Assembly (NCBI GenBank): GCA_003558985.1
Contig: PWNJ01000018.1
Location: 1-51,756, forward strand
Length of the DNA: 51,756 nucleotides
DNA from: a candidate division CSSED10-310 bacterium
Lineage (GTDB): Bacteria; CSSED10-310
Direction of reading: 5' to 3'
How positions within the stretch are numbered: the stretch's first letter is position 1; every line of letters starts with the position of its first letter. Under the pieces are notes generated by a model. The model worked only from the letters and a program-made list of their open reading frames with translations, did no database searches and had not been told where the DNA came from. This document shows, one piece after another, positions 3,001 through 18,672 of the stretch. The position numbers were made by a program, and so were the translations under genes.

Positions 3001-4263
3001 AATTGCAGCCGTTCTGACATCCTTTCCGCTGGACGCATGCCTGTATATGTTTTCAATCACGACAATTGAGTTGTCAACAAGCATTCCCAGGGCAAGAATC
3101 AGTGAAAACAACACGACAAAATTCAGCGTTACCCCCATCAGTTCCAGCACAATAAATGTAATCAGTATTGACAGTGGAATAGCAAATGCTACAAACGAGG
3201 CATTTCGGAAACCCAAAGAAATGCACAACACAATCAATACCATCAGCAATCCGGAAATAATGCTGTTTTCGACATCGTTTACCTGATCCCGAATCATTTC
3301 ACTGGCATCCTGAACAATGCGTATTTCCGTTCCGGGAGGTAAAAACGGTATGGACTGTTCAAGAACAGTGTTTATGGACTCGGCTACATCAACAATATTG
3401 GCTCCAGACTGTTTGCGTATTCGCAACGTAATACAGTTTGTGCCATTCAGTCTGCTGTATGTTTCACGTTCTTTGAAACTGTCGGAGATACGTCCAATAT
3501 CGCTTATCTTGACTGCTTTACCTTGCGGAGCTTTGATAACAATATCTTCCATCTGATAAATATCGCGATATTCACCGGGAATACGCACTGAATATCTGCT
3601 GCCGCCAAGCTCAAGACTTCCGGCTGGTGTTGTCCGGTGTTCCTGCTGTATTCGTCCAATAATCTGTTCAACACCGATTTTATAAAACTCCAGCCGTTCA
3701 GGATCCAGATAAACATAAATCTCACGATCCTGACCACCCAGCAAATCAACCCCCAGAACACCGCTGATCTGCTCAATTTTCTCCTCAAGTTCTTCCCCGA
3801 CTTTTTTCAGTCGCCTCTCACCATAATCTCCCGATACAATGATCTGCATAATTGGGAAATCAGTCGTATTGATTTCAATAATTCTGGGTTCTTCAGCATC
3901 AGAAGGCAATCGCGCCTTTGCCTGGTCAACTCTGTCACGTACACGCTGATACGCATCAACAGTACGAACGGTCGTTTCAAATTCAATCGTTACCGTGGAT
4001 ATCGACTCAAGACTGGTTGAGGTAATTTGCTCGATATCCTGTAAATCATTCAGCTCGCGTTCGATGACATTGGTCACCAGACGCTCTATATCTTCTGGTG
4101 ATACCCCGGGATAAACGGTATGTACCAGTATAAATGGTATTTCTATCTCCGGAGCTGCTTCCAGCGGCAGCCGACGATACGCACCGATACCCATAATGAC
4201 AATACCTGCCAGCAATACATACACCGATGTTTTGAAACGCATCATAATTTCTGAGATAAACAT
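1..4263 (-). CDS. RND efflux permease fused to TolC-like outer-membrane factor (partial, 3' end outside window)
   Basis: One uninterrupted frame of 1421 codons runs off the window edge. Residues 1 to about 1025 are an RND proton-antiport permease of the HAE1/SwrC-like type. They start MFISEIMMRFKTSVYVLL, carry YPGVSPEDIE, a TM4 motif LGMLVDNSIV (D397, one Asp where AcrB has two) and VNNSIVLIDYID in the second half, and end with TM12 (about 1003-1021). A basic linker, a hydrophobic segment (about 1039-1052) and SITRA (1052-1056) follow, which together resemble a signal peptide. Residues from about 1062 are a TolC-type outer-membrane factor (TLEQAIDMALMYNPGIQ, GQATRIDVLRAESEV, SARWSILDGGFR). 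I read every codon across the junction (1 to about 1320) and found no stop or frameshift. The start ATG 4263 follows CCGGAG. It lies just downstream of the membrane-fusion lipoprotein, so the locus encodes a whole tripartite pump. The substrate cannot be told. Confidence 0.9.
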   Translation of the reverse strand, partial: MFISEIMMRFKTSVYVLLAGIVIMGIGAYRRLPLEAAPEIEIPFILVHTVYPGVSPEDIERLVTNVIERELNDLQDIEQITSTSLESISTVTIEFETTVRTVDAYQRVRDRVDQAKARLPSDAEEPRIIEINTTDFPIMQIIVSGDYGERRLKKVGEELEEKIEQISGVLGVDLLGGQDREIYVYLDPERLEFYKIGVEQIIGRIQQEHRTTPAGSLELGGSRYSVRIPGEYRDIYQMEDIVIKAPQGKAVKISDIGRISDSFKERETYSRLNGTNCITLRIRKQSGANIVDVAESINTVLEQSIPFLPPGTEIRIVQDASEMIRDQVNDVENSIISGLLMVLIVLCISLGFRNASFVAFAIPLSILITFIVLELMGVTLNFVVLFSLILALGMLVDNSIVVIENIYRHASSGKDVRTAAIDGAKEVIWPIVASTSTTVAAFFPLLFMPGISGDFMIYLPMTVMTALIATLFVAAFINPVIAGDFLNPSRGKIFDESGTKNGKILRTYQSLLRKALRHPLLIVIGAFSFLVFTIVLFVNIGTGVEFFPPSEPRRAQVSFEGPQGMALDRTDEVIRQIEAICLAEENSESVIGNSGFSPSFGGFPGSGGRSNMGVVDIEFKDRRLRKQSTWETVNSIRDQLDSIVGGKVRMRLEEMGPPTGDPISIEISGPDYQKLNEFALKVIPLVAQIPGAIEIESDFDGSRPEIQIEVDREKAMQRKVNSASIAMAVSTAVNGTVAAVLREGDEEYDIVVKYDHSFRDSITDILDIRVTGMDNVQIPLRDVAVVRTAGGLGSIKRIDGNRSVKISGEVEGRPSSQVMAEAERIIRENIQLPPGYEFHFTGENELQDEMAEFLQRAFGIGILLIFLILTTQFNSVIRPFIILASVVLSINGVLLGLLITRSNFSIMMTGMGIISLAGIVVNNSIVLIDYIDRMRAQGLPIIEALVKAGSVRFRPVFLTAITTMLGMTPMAIGVSIDFKNMVLDIGSENTQWWGPMAQAVIFGLLFATLLTLIVVPVLYLLQERFKVRVKSILSKRKTVAACVLVTMLAIPSITRANDNEDNDLPVITLEQAIDMALMYNPGIQTLNERLKQSDYLIQQAWSMLMPHISVNAGWIHHDRGVSITLPGENDEFMELDIQKQDVGYAVLNASIAVFNPRAFPLLRYAYAGRDAVELHQEHASNDLLVAVVGVYYQIESAKNAVIVASEALANAEEFLRLSKGLSDVGQATRIDVLRAESEVIDAQNMLAAAHDAVDMSKTALAALTDHVGQFDIVTPPKYEPVSTDLDELLHKAWQNRKDLEASRLDIRMNEYLLREIQAQWLPTFDLRYANQWRSSGGLGADNSSWNIELSARWSILDGGFRRAENLRKQSDIRIAEHTVKGLELQIQQQIERNLVELRKSDRSLNLIQKQLDVLEETYRLG

Positions 4264-13883: not shown

Positions 13884-14444
13884 ATGTCCGATGCCCATGA
13901 AAAAATTAAACTGACACTGGAACAGGAAAAAGAGAAAATGTTTCGTATAGCCTGGAAAATGTGTGGCAACCAGGATGAGGCTGAAGAAGTGCTTCAGGAA
14001 ACAGCGCTGAAAGCATTAAAAAACTGGAAGCAATTTCGTGGTGATTCGCAGGTTTCAACGTGGCTTTATCGAATAGCTTCCAATACCTGTCTATCCAAAA
14101 AACGGAAAAAGTCGGTTATTTCAGTTGACCCGTCTGTGTTGGAAGAAGTTGTTCACGAAACCGGCTCTCGCGCTATGGCGAACGATGCTGACTGGAGTAA
14201 AGACCCGTTAGCCCGAACTTTGAACGATGAGCTTCGGCAAGTTCTTGACAATGCAATACTAAAACTTCCTGACTCGTATCGTCTGGTTTTCATTCTTAGA
14301 GATATCGAAGGGTTAAGTGGCGAAGAGACTGCCAAATCTTTGGATTTGTCGGTTACCAATATTAAAGTCAGACTTCACAGAGCCAGAGTATTTTTACGAA
14401 ACGAACTGGATGATTATATCCGCTCGGAAAGAGGTAGAAAATGA
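13884..14444 (+). CDS. ECF RNA polymerase sigma factor (sigma-70 family)
   Basis: The 186-residue sigma factor has only regions 2 and 4. Region 2 includes MFRIAWKMCGNQDEAEEVLQ and STWLYRIASNTCLS, and region 4 includes LPDSYRLVFILRDIEGLSGE and the helix-turn-helix LDLSVTNIKVRLHRAR. It redirects RNA polymerase to a stress regulon. AAGG precedes ATG 13884. Its TGA overlaps the ATG of the anti-sigma gene (ATGA), the typical coupled sigma/anti-sigma pair. Thioredoxin and a selenoprotein follow, so an oxidative or thiol signal is likely. Confidence 0.95.
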   Translation: MSDAHEKIKLTLEQEKEKMFRIAWKMCGNQDEAEEVLQETALKALKNWKQFRGDSQVSTWLYRIASNTCLSKKRKKSVISVDPSVLEEVVHETGSRAMANDADWSKDPLARTLNDELRQVLDNAILKLPDSYRLVFILRDIEGLSGEETAKSLDLSVTNIKVRLHRARVFLRNELDDYIRSERGRK

Positions 14445-14692
14445 ATAAGGAATGCTCATGTGAGGAGCTTCTTGAAATCATAAATGAACTCATCGATGGT
14501 GAGTTGGAAGGTGAAAAGCTTAAACATGCGGAATCACTGATTGAAAATAATCCGCAATGCCGGGCCATGTTTGAAACTGTATCCCGGACAATAGCTTTAT
14601 ATCGGGCAAGACGAAATGAGCTTGAACGCCAGAATATTCCTCAATTAGACTGGGACAAACTCGAAGATAAAATTAAAACAAATCAGATGTAA
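14441..14692 (+). CDS. Anti-sigma factor, ZAS-like with degenerate zinc motif
   Basis: The 83-residue soluble protein is translationally coupled to the ECF sigma gene. It aligns with the zinc-binding anti-sigma (zf-HC2) fold: N-terminal CSCEELLEIINELIDGEL, then AESLIENNPQCRAMF. In canonical members this second part reads H-x3-C-x2-C. Here the His is Leu and the first Cys is Asn, leaving only C40, with C5, C7 and H29 nearby. Zinc binding is therefore either unusual or lost. There is no membrane segment, so it would act in the cytoplasm. Confidence 0.8.
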   Translation: MNKECSCEELLEIINELIDGELEGEKLKHAESLIENNPQCRAMFETVSRTIALYRARRNELERQNIPQLDWDKLEDKIKTNQM

Positions 14693-14744: not shown

Positions 14745-15083
14745 ATGACAAATCAAACATCGGTTAAAGAGTTAAATGACAGCAACTTTCACGACGAAGT
14801 AATAAAAAGTAACACGCCTGTTCTGGTTGATTTTTGGGCTCCCTGGTGCGGACCCTGCAAAATGATGACACCAGTATTGGACGAAATTTCCAATGAGTTT
14901 TCAGATAAACTGAAAGTGGTCAAAGTCAATATTGATGACAATCCATTGATAGCCGAGAAAATGAGTATTCAGGCTATTCCCACACTAGCGGTATTTCGAA
15001 ACGGTAAAATTTTAACAAGACTTACAGGCGCCCGGCATAAAAATGATTTGGTTTCGCTGTTGAAAAACGAAGAAATTATTTGA
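14745..15083 (+). CDS. trxA: Thioredoxin
   Basis: The 112-residue thioredoxin has the active site WCGPCK (C35, C38), FWAPW before it, VNIDDNP and the cis-Pro loop IPTLAVF. It reduces disulfides of cytosolic proteins. I chose ATG 14745 because AAGGAGG lies at ideal spacing; the frame opens slightly earlier at a TTG. It is 52 bases after the anti-sigma gene and 13 bases before the selenoprotein gene on the same strand, so it is part of that operon. Confidence 0.97.
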   Translation: MTNQTSVKELNDSNFHDEVIKSNTPVLVDFWAPWCGPCKMMTPVLDEISNEFSDKLKVVKVNIDDNPLIAEKMSIQAIPTLAVFRNGKILTRLTGARHKNDLVSLLKNEEII

Positions 15084-15096
15084 ACAGGATAAAGAA

Positions 15097-15396
15097 ATGA
15101 ACTCAGACATTATTTTGTTAAGCGAATCAGCAAAAGCGGAATTGTCATCGGTCAGGGATGTCAGGATTTTTGTTGAAGGATACAGTTGAGGTCGTCCGAT
15201 AATCGGAGTAGCTCAGGATGAGACTGCAAAAACAAACCAGACGGTCACAATTGATACGATTAACTTCTACATTGAGGACTCGGTAATCCAGTTAATTAAA
15301 CGATATGGTTCGTTGAATATTGATTATCAAAAAAGTCATTGGTTCGGTAAATCATTCAGGTGTTCATTTGGCCCTGGGCGTATAACGGGCTGTTAA
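15097..15396 (+). CDS. HesB/IscA-like selenoprotein (Sec31, in-frame UGA)
   Basis: ATG 15097 (AGGA upstream) opens a frame that runs to TAA 15394-15396 and is broken only by TGA 15187-15189. Read as selenocysteine, the product is 99 residues. The region around it is VEGYSUGRPIIGVAQDE, which aligns with the first metal-ligand Cys loop of HesB/IscA scaffolds. It is followed by a HesB-like second half (VTIDTINFYIEDSVI) and a Cys-containing tail (SFRCSFGPGRITGC). HesB-like proteins with Sec at this loop are a known bacterial selenoprotein family. A SECIS-like hairpin lies downstream of the UGA. Sequence similarity of this kind continues on both sides of the UGA in one frame, which argues against a truncated gene. 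Function is unknown, probably redox or Fe-S/metal related. No selA, selB, selC or selD lies in the window. Confidence 0.85.
15208..15227 (+). promoter_or_regulatory. Bacterial SECIS-like hairpin
   Basis: GTAGCTCA pairs with TGAG-(A bulge)-CTGC (one G-U pair), closing an apical GGA loop at 15216-15218. The loop starts 26 bases after the UGA, and a G occupies its first positions. Both fit bacterial SECIS rules for SelB binding. Confidence 0.65.
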
Positions 15397-15397
15397 A

Positions 15398-16726
15398 CTA
15401 CAGAATTTCAGCAGCAGTTTGAGCCAGAGGTGAACGTTCACCTCTGGTTAAAGTTACATGACCTGAAAGACCGGAAGATTTAAACCTTTCAACCAGATGC
15501 GTCAATCCCGAAGATTCAGAATCCAGATACGGATTATCAATTTGATAGGGATCGCCAGTAAGAATAATTTTAGTACCATGACCAACACGTGTCACAATTG
15601 TTTTTATTTCGTGCAGTGTTAAGTTCTGAGCTTCATCAACAATAAAATACTGTTTTGCTATAGATCGGCCGCGTATGTATGTCAATGCTTCTATTTCAAG
15701 CATGTTTTGCTCAATTAAATCATAAGCTGAAGCTCGATATTGAAACTCCTGCTCCGATTCATCCGAGTGTAATAACATTTCCAGATTATCGAAAATGGGT
15801 TGCATCCATGGTTTGAGTTTGTCTTTTATTTCACCGGGAAGATAACCCAGATCACGACCTAAAGGAAAAATTGGCCGTGACACAAGAAGTTTATGATACA
15901 CACCTTCATCAAGAGATTTGCATAACCCCGCGGCTAACGACAAAAGCGTCTTCCCCGTTCCAGCTTTTCCAATTAGGGTAACAAGCTGAATTTTGTCGTC
16001 CATCAGCAATGATAACGCAATTTTTTGCTCAAGATTACGCGGTTTTATTCCCCAAACATCCAAAGTTTTCAAATGAGCCACCCGAATGGAGTCCATTGAC
16101 GACGTCACCTGACCCAAACCGGTATGTGAAGGGTCGGTATCATTTCGCAACAGAATATATTCATTGCTGTACAAGTCTTGCTCTAATAATGGAATTTCAC
16201 CTTTTTGGTACAAATCAGCGATAACATTTTCAGGAACCATCAGTTCTTTGATTCCTGAATATAATGTATCAATGTTTGTGTGGTCAGATATATAATCCTC
16301 AGCGATCAGTCCTATGGCATCAGCTCGAATACGCAAATTCGTATCCCGGGTCAGAAAAACTACCGGCAATGATTCAGCTCGACGTTTAACAAGCAACGCT
16401 ATAGCCAATATTCGATCGTCATTTGTCAGTTCACCATTTTGATGAGGATACTCCGTCATGGCCTCCAATCCGATTTCAACACGTATGCTTCCACCCTTCT
16501 CCGTTGGCACACCATCAGATAACCGTCGATGCGATTCCCGTCTTATCCGGTCAAGATGACGACCAACCATTCGAGCGTTCCTGCCACGCTCATTCTGATC
16601 TCGCTTGAATTTGTCAATTTCCTTGATACAGATTATCGGTATGACCACTTCATTGTCTTCAAACGAAAATATCGAATTTGGATCATTTAGCAAAATATTC
16701 GTATCAAGCACAAAAATTTTTTTCAT
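15398..16726 (-). CDS. PhoH-family ATPase with N-terminal PIN domain
   Basis: The 442-residue protein joins an N-terminal PIN ribonuclease-like domain (FVLDTNILLNDP, acidic residues in LTNDDRILAIALLV and LTRDTNLRIRADAIG) to a PhoH ATPase domain (Walker A LIGKAGTGKTLL, Walker B YFIVDEAQN, ILTGDPYQIDNPYLD). PhoH2-type proteins couple an RNA helicase/ATPase to RNase activity. I chose ATG 16726 (MKKIFVLDTN); the frame opens earlier at 16759. It is convergent with the selenoprotein gene, their stop codons one base apart. Confidence 0.93.
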   Translation of the reverse strand: MKKIFVLDTNILLNDPNSIFSFEDNEVVIPIICIKEIDKFKRDQNERGRNARMVGRHLDRIRRESHRRLSDGVPTEKGGSIRVEIGLEAMTEYPHQNGELTNDDRILAIALLVKRRAESLPVVFLTRDTNLRIRADAIGLIAEDYISDHTNIDTLYSGIKELMVPENVIADLYQKGEIPLLEQDLYSNEYILLRNDTDPSHTGLGQVTSSMDSIRVAHLKTLDVWGIKPRNLEQKIALSLLMDDKIQLVTLIGKAGTGKTLLSLAAGLCKSLDEGVYHKLLVSRPIFPLGRDLGYLPGEIKDKLKPWMQPIFDNLEMLLHSDESEQEFQYRASAYDLIEQNMLEIEALTYIRGRSIAKQYFIVDEAQNLTLHEIKTIVTRVGHGTKIILTGDPYQIDNPYLDSESSGLTHLVERFKSSGLSGHVTLTRGERSPLAQTAAEIL

Positions 16727-16745
16727 GATTATAATTTCCCGGATT

Positions 16746-16784
16746 GAAAAAGAAAGCATCGAACCCGTTTGGATTCGATGCTTT
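16746..16784 (-). terminator. Intrinsic terminator of the peptidase gene
   Basis: AAAGCATCGAA (16753-16763) pairs perfectly with TTCGATGCTTT (16774-16784). On the minus strand the stem is followed by a T-rich run (CTTTTTC). It separates the C1A peptidase gene from PhoH. Confidence 0.75.
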
Positions 16785-16867: not shown

Positions 16868-18496
16868 TTATTGGCTTCTGAACCCCACATAATTTACATC
16901 TGACAACAGGTGCCACGAATCAGCTTCCATGATTGCCGCCCAGAAATACATGTAATCCGACTGAATAGACTCATTGGGCCAAACAAAAGCTAGCAGATTT
17001 CTGGTTGATTGTCCCGAATCCAGAATATGAAGAGTTTTTTGAGGAGTTTCTGTCCATGTCGGATAAAACCAGAAACTGTTCTCCACCTGAAGAGCCACCA
17101 TAATTTCAGTAAACATCGGGTTACCTGAATTATCAAAATGAAGGTCCAGAATAAATGGATCACTCGGACCATAAACGTCATTGTTTAATGAAATATCAAT
17201 ATTTATTCCTGTGTCGGGAATTGGTGTGGATGTGGGGGGTTCCGGTGTTGGATTATCTGGATCTGGTGTTGGTGTATTGGGTCCGGGTGTAAACGTTGGA
17301 AAGGGAGTATTCGTTGGTAGCGCTGTTGGCGTATTGGGTCCGGGTGTAGGCGTATTTTGTCCGGGCGTCCATGTTGGCATTGGTGTATGGGTCGGAACTG
17401 GAGTTTGCGGTGTTGGTGTAGCAGTATGAACCGGAGTATTGGTTGCAGGTGATGCAGGAGTTGGTGTCCAGGTTGGAATCGCGGTATGTGTTGGCGATGG
17501 TGTTCCTGGAGTAGGTGTTGGTGTCGCCGTCGAAGGTGGAGTATTGGTGGTTTGTGGAGTTGCGGTATGTGCGGGAGTATTCGTCGGTTGAGGCGCATAG
17601 GTAATCCGGGTAGCGCCATATCCGACATTACAGGTCCCGTAGCGCATCCAGGCATAACCTCCAAGACCCCATCCGGTTCCCCATGAGTTTTCTATCAGCC
17701 ATGCGCCATTACCACTGCATTGATTGTCATCATATCCTACAATCAAGATTCCATGATTAACGCTACCACCGCTATGGTTTCTGCTGTAACACCCGCCAGT
17801 GTAACTGTAAAAGTCATTATACACATACATGGCCGCTGCAACAGGACCATCCTGCAATGCGTTTTTGATTGAGTTAACACTGGAATTTATCTGGTTATAC
17901 GAAATAATAAATGCAACTTTGTCACACTGATTCTGAATACAGGGCGGCCAATCAGCAGCCCTATACGGCATACAACTGGCTGATACACCACCTGGATTAA
18001 CGAATATTTGCGGATAAAACCAGCCACCATTGCAACCATAACCCTGGCTATTGCAGGATATCAATTGCTGTTCTGATAAATCCAAAACAATATCATCATA
18101 AATCCTGGCATGGGATTCAACCATCGCCGTTGTGGCAAACGCCCAGCAACTTCCACAGTTCCCCTGAGCTTTGACTGGCGTCGTTCCACCCATCTCAACC
18201 CAGTTTAAATAACCACGACTCTCAAGAAAATCCTCATCATATCTGCCAGGTTCAGGCTCAACATACCACTCCGGTACTACAAGACCCAGCAAATTCTGTT
18301 TCTCCTCATCCGATAATACCGAGACTGTCGTTTCACCAGCAATCCACTCAAGATCATTGTCAATTATATACTGCTGAATCTCCTCAAGTGTCATACTATG
18401 ACCCGATGGCGCTATGAAAGCAAACATGATGCAAGCCATAAATACCAAAGTGTTGTAATTGAAGCTAAAAATTTTAGAAAAACTTGAATAACTCAT
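16868..18496 (-). CDS. Secreted papain-like (C1A) cysteine peptidase with Thr/Pro-rich linker
   Basis: The 542-residue exported protease has a signal/anchor segment (about 14-33), a propeptide (about 36-95) and a C1A catalytic domain with Q111, C117 (QGNCGSCWAFA), H248 (VNHGILIVGYDD) and N270 (IENSWGTGWG). All active-site residues are present, along with paired Cys for disulfides. A Thr/Pro-rich tract (about 303-432, TNTP/TPTP units) links to a C-terminal beta-rich domain of about 110 residues that may anchor it to the surface or to a substrate. I chose ATG 18496, with GGAGG seven bases upstream; the frame opens ten codons earlier. Confidence 0.93.
   Translation of the reverse strand: MSYSSFSKIFSFNYNTLVFMACIMFAFIAPSGHSMTLEEIQQYIIDNDLEWIAGETTVSVLSDEEKQNLLGLVVPEWYVEPEPGRYDEDFLESRGYLNWVEMGGTTPVKAQGNCGSCWAFATTAMVESHARIYDDIVLDLSEQQLISCNSQGYGCNGGWFYPQIFVNPGGVSASCMPYRAADWPPCIQNQCDKVAFIISYNQINSSVNSIKNALQDGPVAAAMYVYNDFYSYTGGCYSRNHSGGSVNHGILIVGYDDNQCSGNGAWLIENSWGTGWGLGGYAWMRYGTCNVGYGATRITYAPQPTNTPAHTATPQTTNTPPSTATPTPTPGTPSPTHTAIPTWTPTPASPATNTPVHTATPTPQTPVPTHTPMPTWTPGQNTPTPGPNTPTALPTNTPFPTFTPGPNTPTPDPDNPTPEPPTSTPIPDTGINIDISLNNDVYGPSDPFILDLHFDNSGNPMFTEIMVALQVENSFWFYPTWTETPQKTLHILDSGQSTRNLLAFVWPNESIQSDYMYFWAAIMEADSWHLLSDVNYVGFRSQ
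17212..17592. repeat. Degenerate repeat coding for the Thr/Pro linker
   Basis: Low-complexity DNA, with G/T-rich units such as GGTGTTGG and GGAGTATTGG on the plus strand, codes on the minus strand for the TNTP/TPTP tract of the peptidase. Units vary in length and sequence, so it is a decayed tandem repeat and not an array with spacers. Confidence 0.8.
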
Positions 18497-18672
18497 AGTA
18501 AAACCTCCGACTCTGAAATTATGCAATATTTATACCGGCTGGGCTTTGAAAATACACTAACAAGAATCTTTCGTATAAATTCAATAGACTGATTGTGTTT
18601 TGAAAAACGGCTAACTGCATGATAAAAGTAGTAAATGATAGAATTGATTCGGCAACCTTCAAGGAGTTTATT

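Follow-up and report, generated by a model that had tools for sequence, protein, structure and literature searches.

A very probable HesB-like selenoprotein gene adjoining a thioredoxin gene in the candidate phylum CSSED10-310

HesB-like selenoproteins form a known family, represented by the models TIGR01911 and NF038090 (IscA_HesB_Se). The HesB-like protein of Methanococcus maripaludis is a 75Se-labelled selenoprotein whose function is unclear (PMC11097638). For bacteria, a survey published in 2006 recorded two Sec-to-Cys conversions and no Cys-to-Sec conversion among such proteins (PMC1794560). Their motif is listed as UxGP, and bacterial SECIS elements (bSECIS) are recognized by an apical loop of 3-9 nt, a G within the first two loop positions, a distance of 16-37 nt from the UGA and a minimum free energy (MFE) of at most -7.5 (PMC13188914). 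Here, we describe a locus found in a window of 51,756 nucleotides (the whole stretch of DNA that was analysed) and conclude with high confidence that it is a genuine gene of this family. The family had already been described, as the original prediction recognized; what is new is its member in the undersampled candidate phylum CSSED10-310.

A reading frame continuing past an in-frame UGA

The frame consists of 99 codons followed by a TAA, and its single interruption is a TGA (Table 1). With this TGA read as selenocysteine (U), the product is MNSDIILLSESAKAELSSVRDVRIFVEGYSUGRPIIGVAQDETAKTNQTVTIDTINFYIEDSVIQLIKRYGSLNIDYQKSHWFGKSFRCSFGPGRITGC. A Shine-Dalgarno-like AGGA precedes the ATG, directly behind the stop codon of a thioredoxin gene. 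Downstream of the TGA, the frame contains a single ATG, GTG or TTG codon, the TTG at 15313; since no start codon lies near the TGA, the part behind it is probably not a gene in its own right. In a normal annotation the gene is split because its internal UGA, as we read it, inserts selenocysteine: SelB bound to a hairpin starting 19 bases 3' of the UGA would bring Sec-tRNA to this codon, giving one 99-residue protein. A general reassignment of UGA to sense was ruled out, since UGA terminates seven of 18 genes of the window. When the frames of the window with TGA read as Sec were inspected by eye, no other UGA-spanning gene was conspicuous.

Table 1. Features of the selenoprotein locus and its gene cluster (positions in the window)
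Feature	Position	Strand	Remarks
ECF-type RNA polymerase sigma factor, first gene of the cluster	13884..14444	+	PF04542, PF08281, TIGR02937; 83%/78% identity to G002/G001
Small Cys-containing protein, candidate anti-sigma factor	14441..14692	+	Conserved position; 65%/51% identity to G002/G001
Thioredoxin (WCGPC), directly 5' of the HesB gene	14745..15083	+	PF00085, 7.4e-35; TIGR01068 above cut-off
HesB-like selenoprotein gene (very probable)	15097..15396	+	99 aa including Sec31; stop TAA 15394-15396
In-frame UGA, Sec residue 31	15187..15189	+	TGA in 38 other loci at the same column; TGC/TGT in Cys homologues
Bacterial SECIS hairpin	15208..15227	+	GUAGCUCA-GGA-UGAGACUGC, one bulged A; apical GGA loop 15216-15218
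PhoH-like PIN/ATPase protein, convergent	15398..16759	-	Stop just past the selenoprotein TAA; PF02562, PF13638

The genome of the window (G000) was compared with two genomes of the same family (G001 and G002) and one of the same order (G004), all from CSSED10-310. A search of 60 genomes recovered homologues interrupted by TGA in each of the two family members (G002, 1.5e-19; G001, 3.1e-17). The match in G004 spans only residues 32-92, i.e. the part that follows the TGA (E = 1.9e-9), and the codon just before it is TGA. Wider searches followed by extraction added 35 loci to these three, all with TGA at the Sec column; the Sec gene set used below thus comprises 39 genes, including those of the window and of G004. 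Cys-type homologues carry TGC or TGT at the column of Sec31. The original prediction, that a single frame runs across the UGA, holds: alignments with relatives cover the sequence before and after a TGA located in the same column, the protein homology runs past the TGA in G001 and G002, and the homologues have either Sec or Cys at position 31.

Public relatives are found in JAFGEQ and JAFGMN, two members of candidate division CSSED10-310 in the same family as the window genome, which originate from Zodletone Spring (PMC8248873). A search for related loci with the alignment as query matched solely the contigs of these two CSSED10-310 MAGs, and the same search with the single window protein gave zero matches.

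The best NCBIfam models for the window protein are TIGR01911 (1.5e-6) and NF038090 (9.6e-6), and no Pfam family matched it. Its scores lie under both curated cut-offs (28.7 vs 66.35 bits and 25.8 vs 85 bits, respectively), as do those of its relatives, although the homologue from G002 matches NF038090 at 1.4e-16 across residues 1-94. TIGR01911 is passed in none of eight genomes of the phylum and NF038090 in none of 80 genomes of the class of G032. Since clear UGA-containing members also score under these cut-offs, both models look narrow. Concerning the motif, the window protein has UGRP, in which Pro34 is retained and Gly33 replaced by Arg, whereas G001, G002 and G004 have UGGP; this is a one-residue deviation in an otherwise clear member of the family. 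In a tree of 53 rows, the Sec proteins all fall in one clade, from which canonical IscA-type and distant Cys proteins are separated with 98/95 support; within it, the proteins of the window, G001 and G002 cluster together (94/85).

Nucleotide conservation of the SECIS hairpin

The hairpin spans positions +19 to +38 past the UGA, with the GGA loop at +27 to +29; the bulged A lies on the 3' side of the stem, in its lower part. Folding of the UGA and the 41 following bases returned, as the exact minimum-energy structure, the hairpin that had originally been predicted. It fits the bSECIS criteria by its GGA loop, its distance of 26 nt from the UGA and an MFE of -12.3 for the UGA plus 41 nt; this energy comes partly from a second hairpin, and the SECIS hairpin alone reaches -7.4, which is marginal against the limit of -7.5. 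Furthermore, the folding energy by itself lacks significance: z is -1.58, and 17 of 200 shuffles are as stable. Since hairpins from CSSED10-310 are not clearly better than shuffles, nucleotide conservation was used rather than folding energy.

Across the 39 Sec genes, codons 8-11 past the UGA almost invariably read GCT-CTG-GAT-GAG, and the apical half of the hairpin, GCTC-nGGAn-GAGC, is conserved at the nucleotide level. For instance, GCT accounts for 34 of the 35 Ala codons at position 8, against 13/199 (6.5%) elsewhere in those genes. Likewise, Asp at the SECIS is encoded by GAT (29/34 vs 76/273 elsewhere) and Glu by GAG (35/36 vs 84/185), keeping in mind that the Sec genes are kin and that P values for such biases therefore overstate independence. 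The window retains GCT, GAT and GAG as well as the GGA loop. In its own genes, GAG represents only 20% of the Glu codons, yet GAG is used at the SECIS; GCT (35%) and GAT (73%) are both common in these genes and thus less telling. Moreover, among 23 distinct sequences, pairing in the five-pair stem reaches 89.6%, versus 21.7-40.9% for slid versions. At three of the five pairs, changes on both sides are compensatory, as in G004 (ACTC/GAGT) and G086 (TCTC/GAGA) compared with GCTC/GAGC. The hairpin is absent in this register from three distant members (G087, G228 and G242). Judged from these codon and pairing patterns, the nucleotides of the hairpin are conserved beyond the needs of the protein.

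Three genomes carry Cys and Sec HesB-like copies in tandem: G032 (L005, 866-1761), G422 (L075) and G030 (L063). The Cys copies are nested in the Sec clade and have lost the SECIS codons, those of G032 and G030 reading GCG-CTC-GAC-GAC and GCC-CTG-GAC-GAA, respectively. These nested Cys paralogues agree with the Sec-to-Cys direction reported previously (PMC1794560).

Gene cluster, fold and possible function

The order of the sigma factor, the anti-sigma-like protein, thioredoxin, the HesB-like protein and the convergent PhoH gene is common to G000, G001 and G002. Further upstream lie genes for HU, TatD and a Crp-like regulator, each matched in G001 and G002. Outside the phylum, thioredoxin, sigma factor and PhoH genes are absent within about 1.5 kb of the sampled Sec members. 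The small protein encoded behind the ECF sigma gene has no Pfam or NCBIfam match; its position makes it a candidate anti-sigma factor, possibly of an undescribed type. On the other side of the cluster, a gene located at 16868-18526 on the minus strand encodes what looks by eye like a papain-like cysteine peptidase, which also has a C-terminal domain and a long linker rich in Pro and Thr (TPTPTP); its relatives occupy a similar location in G002 (L043) and G001 (L044).

The predicted model of the selenoprotein has an IscA fold (pLDDT 87.4), with a disordered C-terminal tail (pLDDT < 50). The best PDB matches found by Foldseek are IscA, HI1723 and SufA, and a sequence profile search matched HI1723 at 1e-18. 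Sec31 is located in a turn between strands 21-30 and 33-40 and aligns with the first ligand Cys of IscA-type proteins. Of the IscA CxC pair, the first Cys has its counterpart in Cys99 and the second has none, since the chain ends there. In an alignment of 28 rows, Cys99 is invariant, whereas a Cys at the place of Cys89 occurs only in the three proteins of the CSSED10-310 family. Therefore, Cys99 is the better candidate as partner of Sec31, and the putative selenenyl-sulfide chemistry, originally suggested from the tail with both Cys residues, would more likely involve the terminal one.

Sec31 may thus substitute for the first ligand Cys, and Cys99 would be what is left of the usual CxC pair. 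A Sec31-Cys99 pair would be kept reduced by the adjoining thioredoxin, the likely electron donor, within the ECF-sigma-linked cluster. Both a putative thioredoxin-reducible selenenyl-sulfide between Sec31 and Cys99 and a putative metal site with two ligands per subunit are plausible. Most probably, the protein serves in thiol/selenol redox reactions or in the handling of Fe-S clusters or metal; of the two, we tentatively favor a redox role, to which we give a chance just short of even. A broader proposal is rather unlikely: the short-tailed Sec-HesB proteins, in which one Sec is combined with a lone terminal Cys, would have ceased to be Fe-S carriers and be distinct Sec-Cys redox proteins. In CSSED10-310, such a protein would have been joined to a thioredoxin of its own and, controlled by an ECF sigma factor, would form with it a dedicated stress/redox module.

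The alternative function, a carrier of Fe-S clusters or metal similar to A-type proteins, in which Sec31 and Cys99 would serve as dimer ligands and not as parts of a redox enzyme, would still make the protein a selenoprotein. It agrees with the IscA fold and with the alignment of both residues with ligand Cys, and we consider it a tenable possibility, somewhat below an even chance. However, the third ligand Cys is missing from the chain, several other Sec members likewise have a single terminal Cys, and in this family the neighboring thioredoxin gene points to thiol chemistry.

Selenocysteine machinery and comparison with known systems

The Sec machinery of G000, an assembly 60% complete, was judged by family searches. 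They detected selB (1.7e-114, 382 bits) and selD (1.3e-102, above cut-off), the latter with its own in-frame UGA (GUASK) and therefore a second selenoprotein gene in this genome. Of the sel genes on which the original prediction depends, selB and selD are thus present; selA and selC (tRNA-Sec) were not found in the 60%-complete draft. Both tRNA-Sec and selA score above cut-off in each of the seven other genomes of the phylum. The best tRNA-Sec match of G000 proved to be a tRNA-Ser. An Rfam search of the window at gathering thresholds returned two tRNAs only. Formate dehydrogenase was not found in the 60%-complete G000, and G001 and G002 have UGA-containing ones. The selD gene is located on the minus strand of L042 (contig C94), adjoined upstream by the frame CGTCLEYYNLKEVIEVGTVSNMYDIAETM, which we take to resemble the YedF family.

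The selB gene of G000 contains one internal amber codon (TAG, 3235-3237 on the minus strand of L017, contig C192), at about residue 54 of SelB, which may reflect either an erroneous base or a mutation that arose recently. Together with the missing selA and tRNA-Sec, this amber would suit a lineage that is losing Sec decoding, in which the HesB-like gene looks intact and its translation now stops at the UGA. Divergence and the Arg in the motif are the basis of this explanation. In the tree, the window protein has a longer branch than its homologues from G001 and G002, and its identity to either of them is about 40%, against 60% between the two. No such imbalance affects G000 in the sigma factor, the anti-sigma-like protein or PhoH, and thioredoxin has a smaller one. 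The long branch and the deviant UGRP therefore leave some room for relaxed constraint. However, two absent genes are unsurprising in a draft 60% complete. Apart from the amber, SelB is intact for some 640 residues, with 57% identity to G002; the affected codon belongs to a variable loop and corresponds to Asp in G002, Gly in G001 and Ser in G003. The UGA frame of selD is kept; the SECIS stem, GGA loop and frame of the HesB-like gene are all preserved; and thioredoxin, encoded in the same cluster, is also somewhat diverged. Recent decay is thus very unlikely. A truncated pseudogene, or a sequencing error in an ordinary Cys-type gene, deserves hardly any credence: the TGA is one base away from the Cys codons TGC and TGT, but relatives whose genomes were assembled independently share this TGA, the UGA-linked SECIS is conserved and the frame has no second disruption. 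The reading first proposed, a HesB-like selenoprotein whose first metal-ligand position is occupied by Sec, is supported by TGA-containing homologues, a conserved bSECIS, selB and the UGA-bearing selD.

A selenoprotein family with no known function now reaches a phylum in which every one of the other genomes examined has selA and tRNA-Sec, and the conserved neighborhood makes the function of Sec-HesB testable. Moreover, the SECIS of HesB-like genes is conserved enough at the nucleotide level to reveal members that score under the cut-offs of the curated protein models.

Among described proteins, the A-type Fe-S carriers IscA, SufA and ErpA (PF01521, TIGR00049) resemble the window protein in fold and overall alignment. 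Unlike them, it lacks the C-terminal CxC, has Sec in place of the first Cys, belongs to a separate clade and matches no Pfam family; of the three ligand Cys of these carriers (one in the loop and the C-terminal CxC), it has counterparts in Sec31 and Cys99 only. The Sec-containing SelD is likewise UGA-encoded in G000 but is an unrelated enzyme; it is evidence that this genome uses UGA for Sec. The closest systems are the HesB-like selenoproteins (PMC11097638; bacterial set, PMC1794560), with which the window protein shares the IscA/HesB fold, Sec at the first ligand Cys, a Pro three residues past Sec, a C-terminal Cys and the existence of Cys-type homologues, and its bSECIS fits the published constraints on loop, G and spacing (PMC13188914). 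It differs from them by UGRP instead of UxGP, scores under the curated cut-offs, a short tail ending in a single Cys, a gene adjoining that of thioredoxin in an ECF sigma cluster, and its occurrence in the phylum CSSED10-310.
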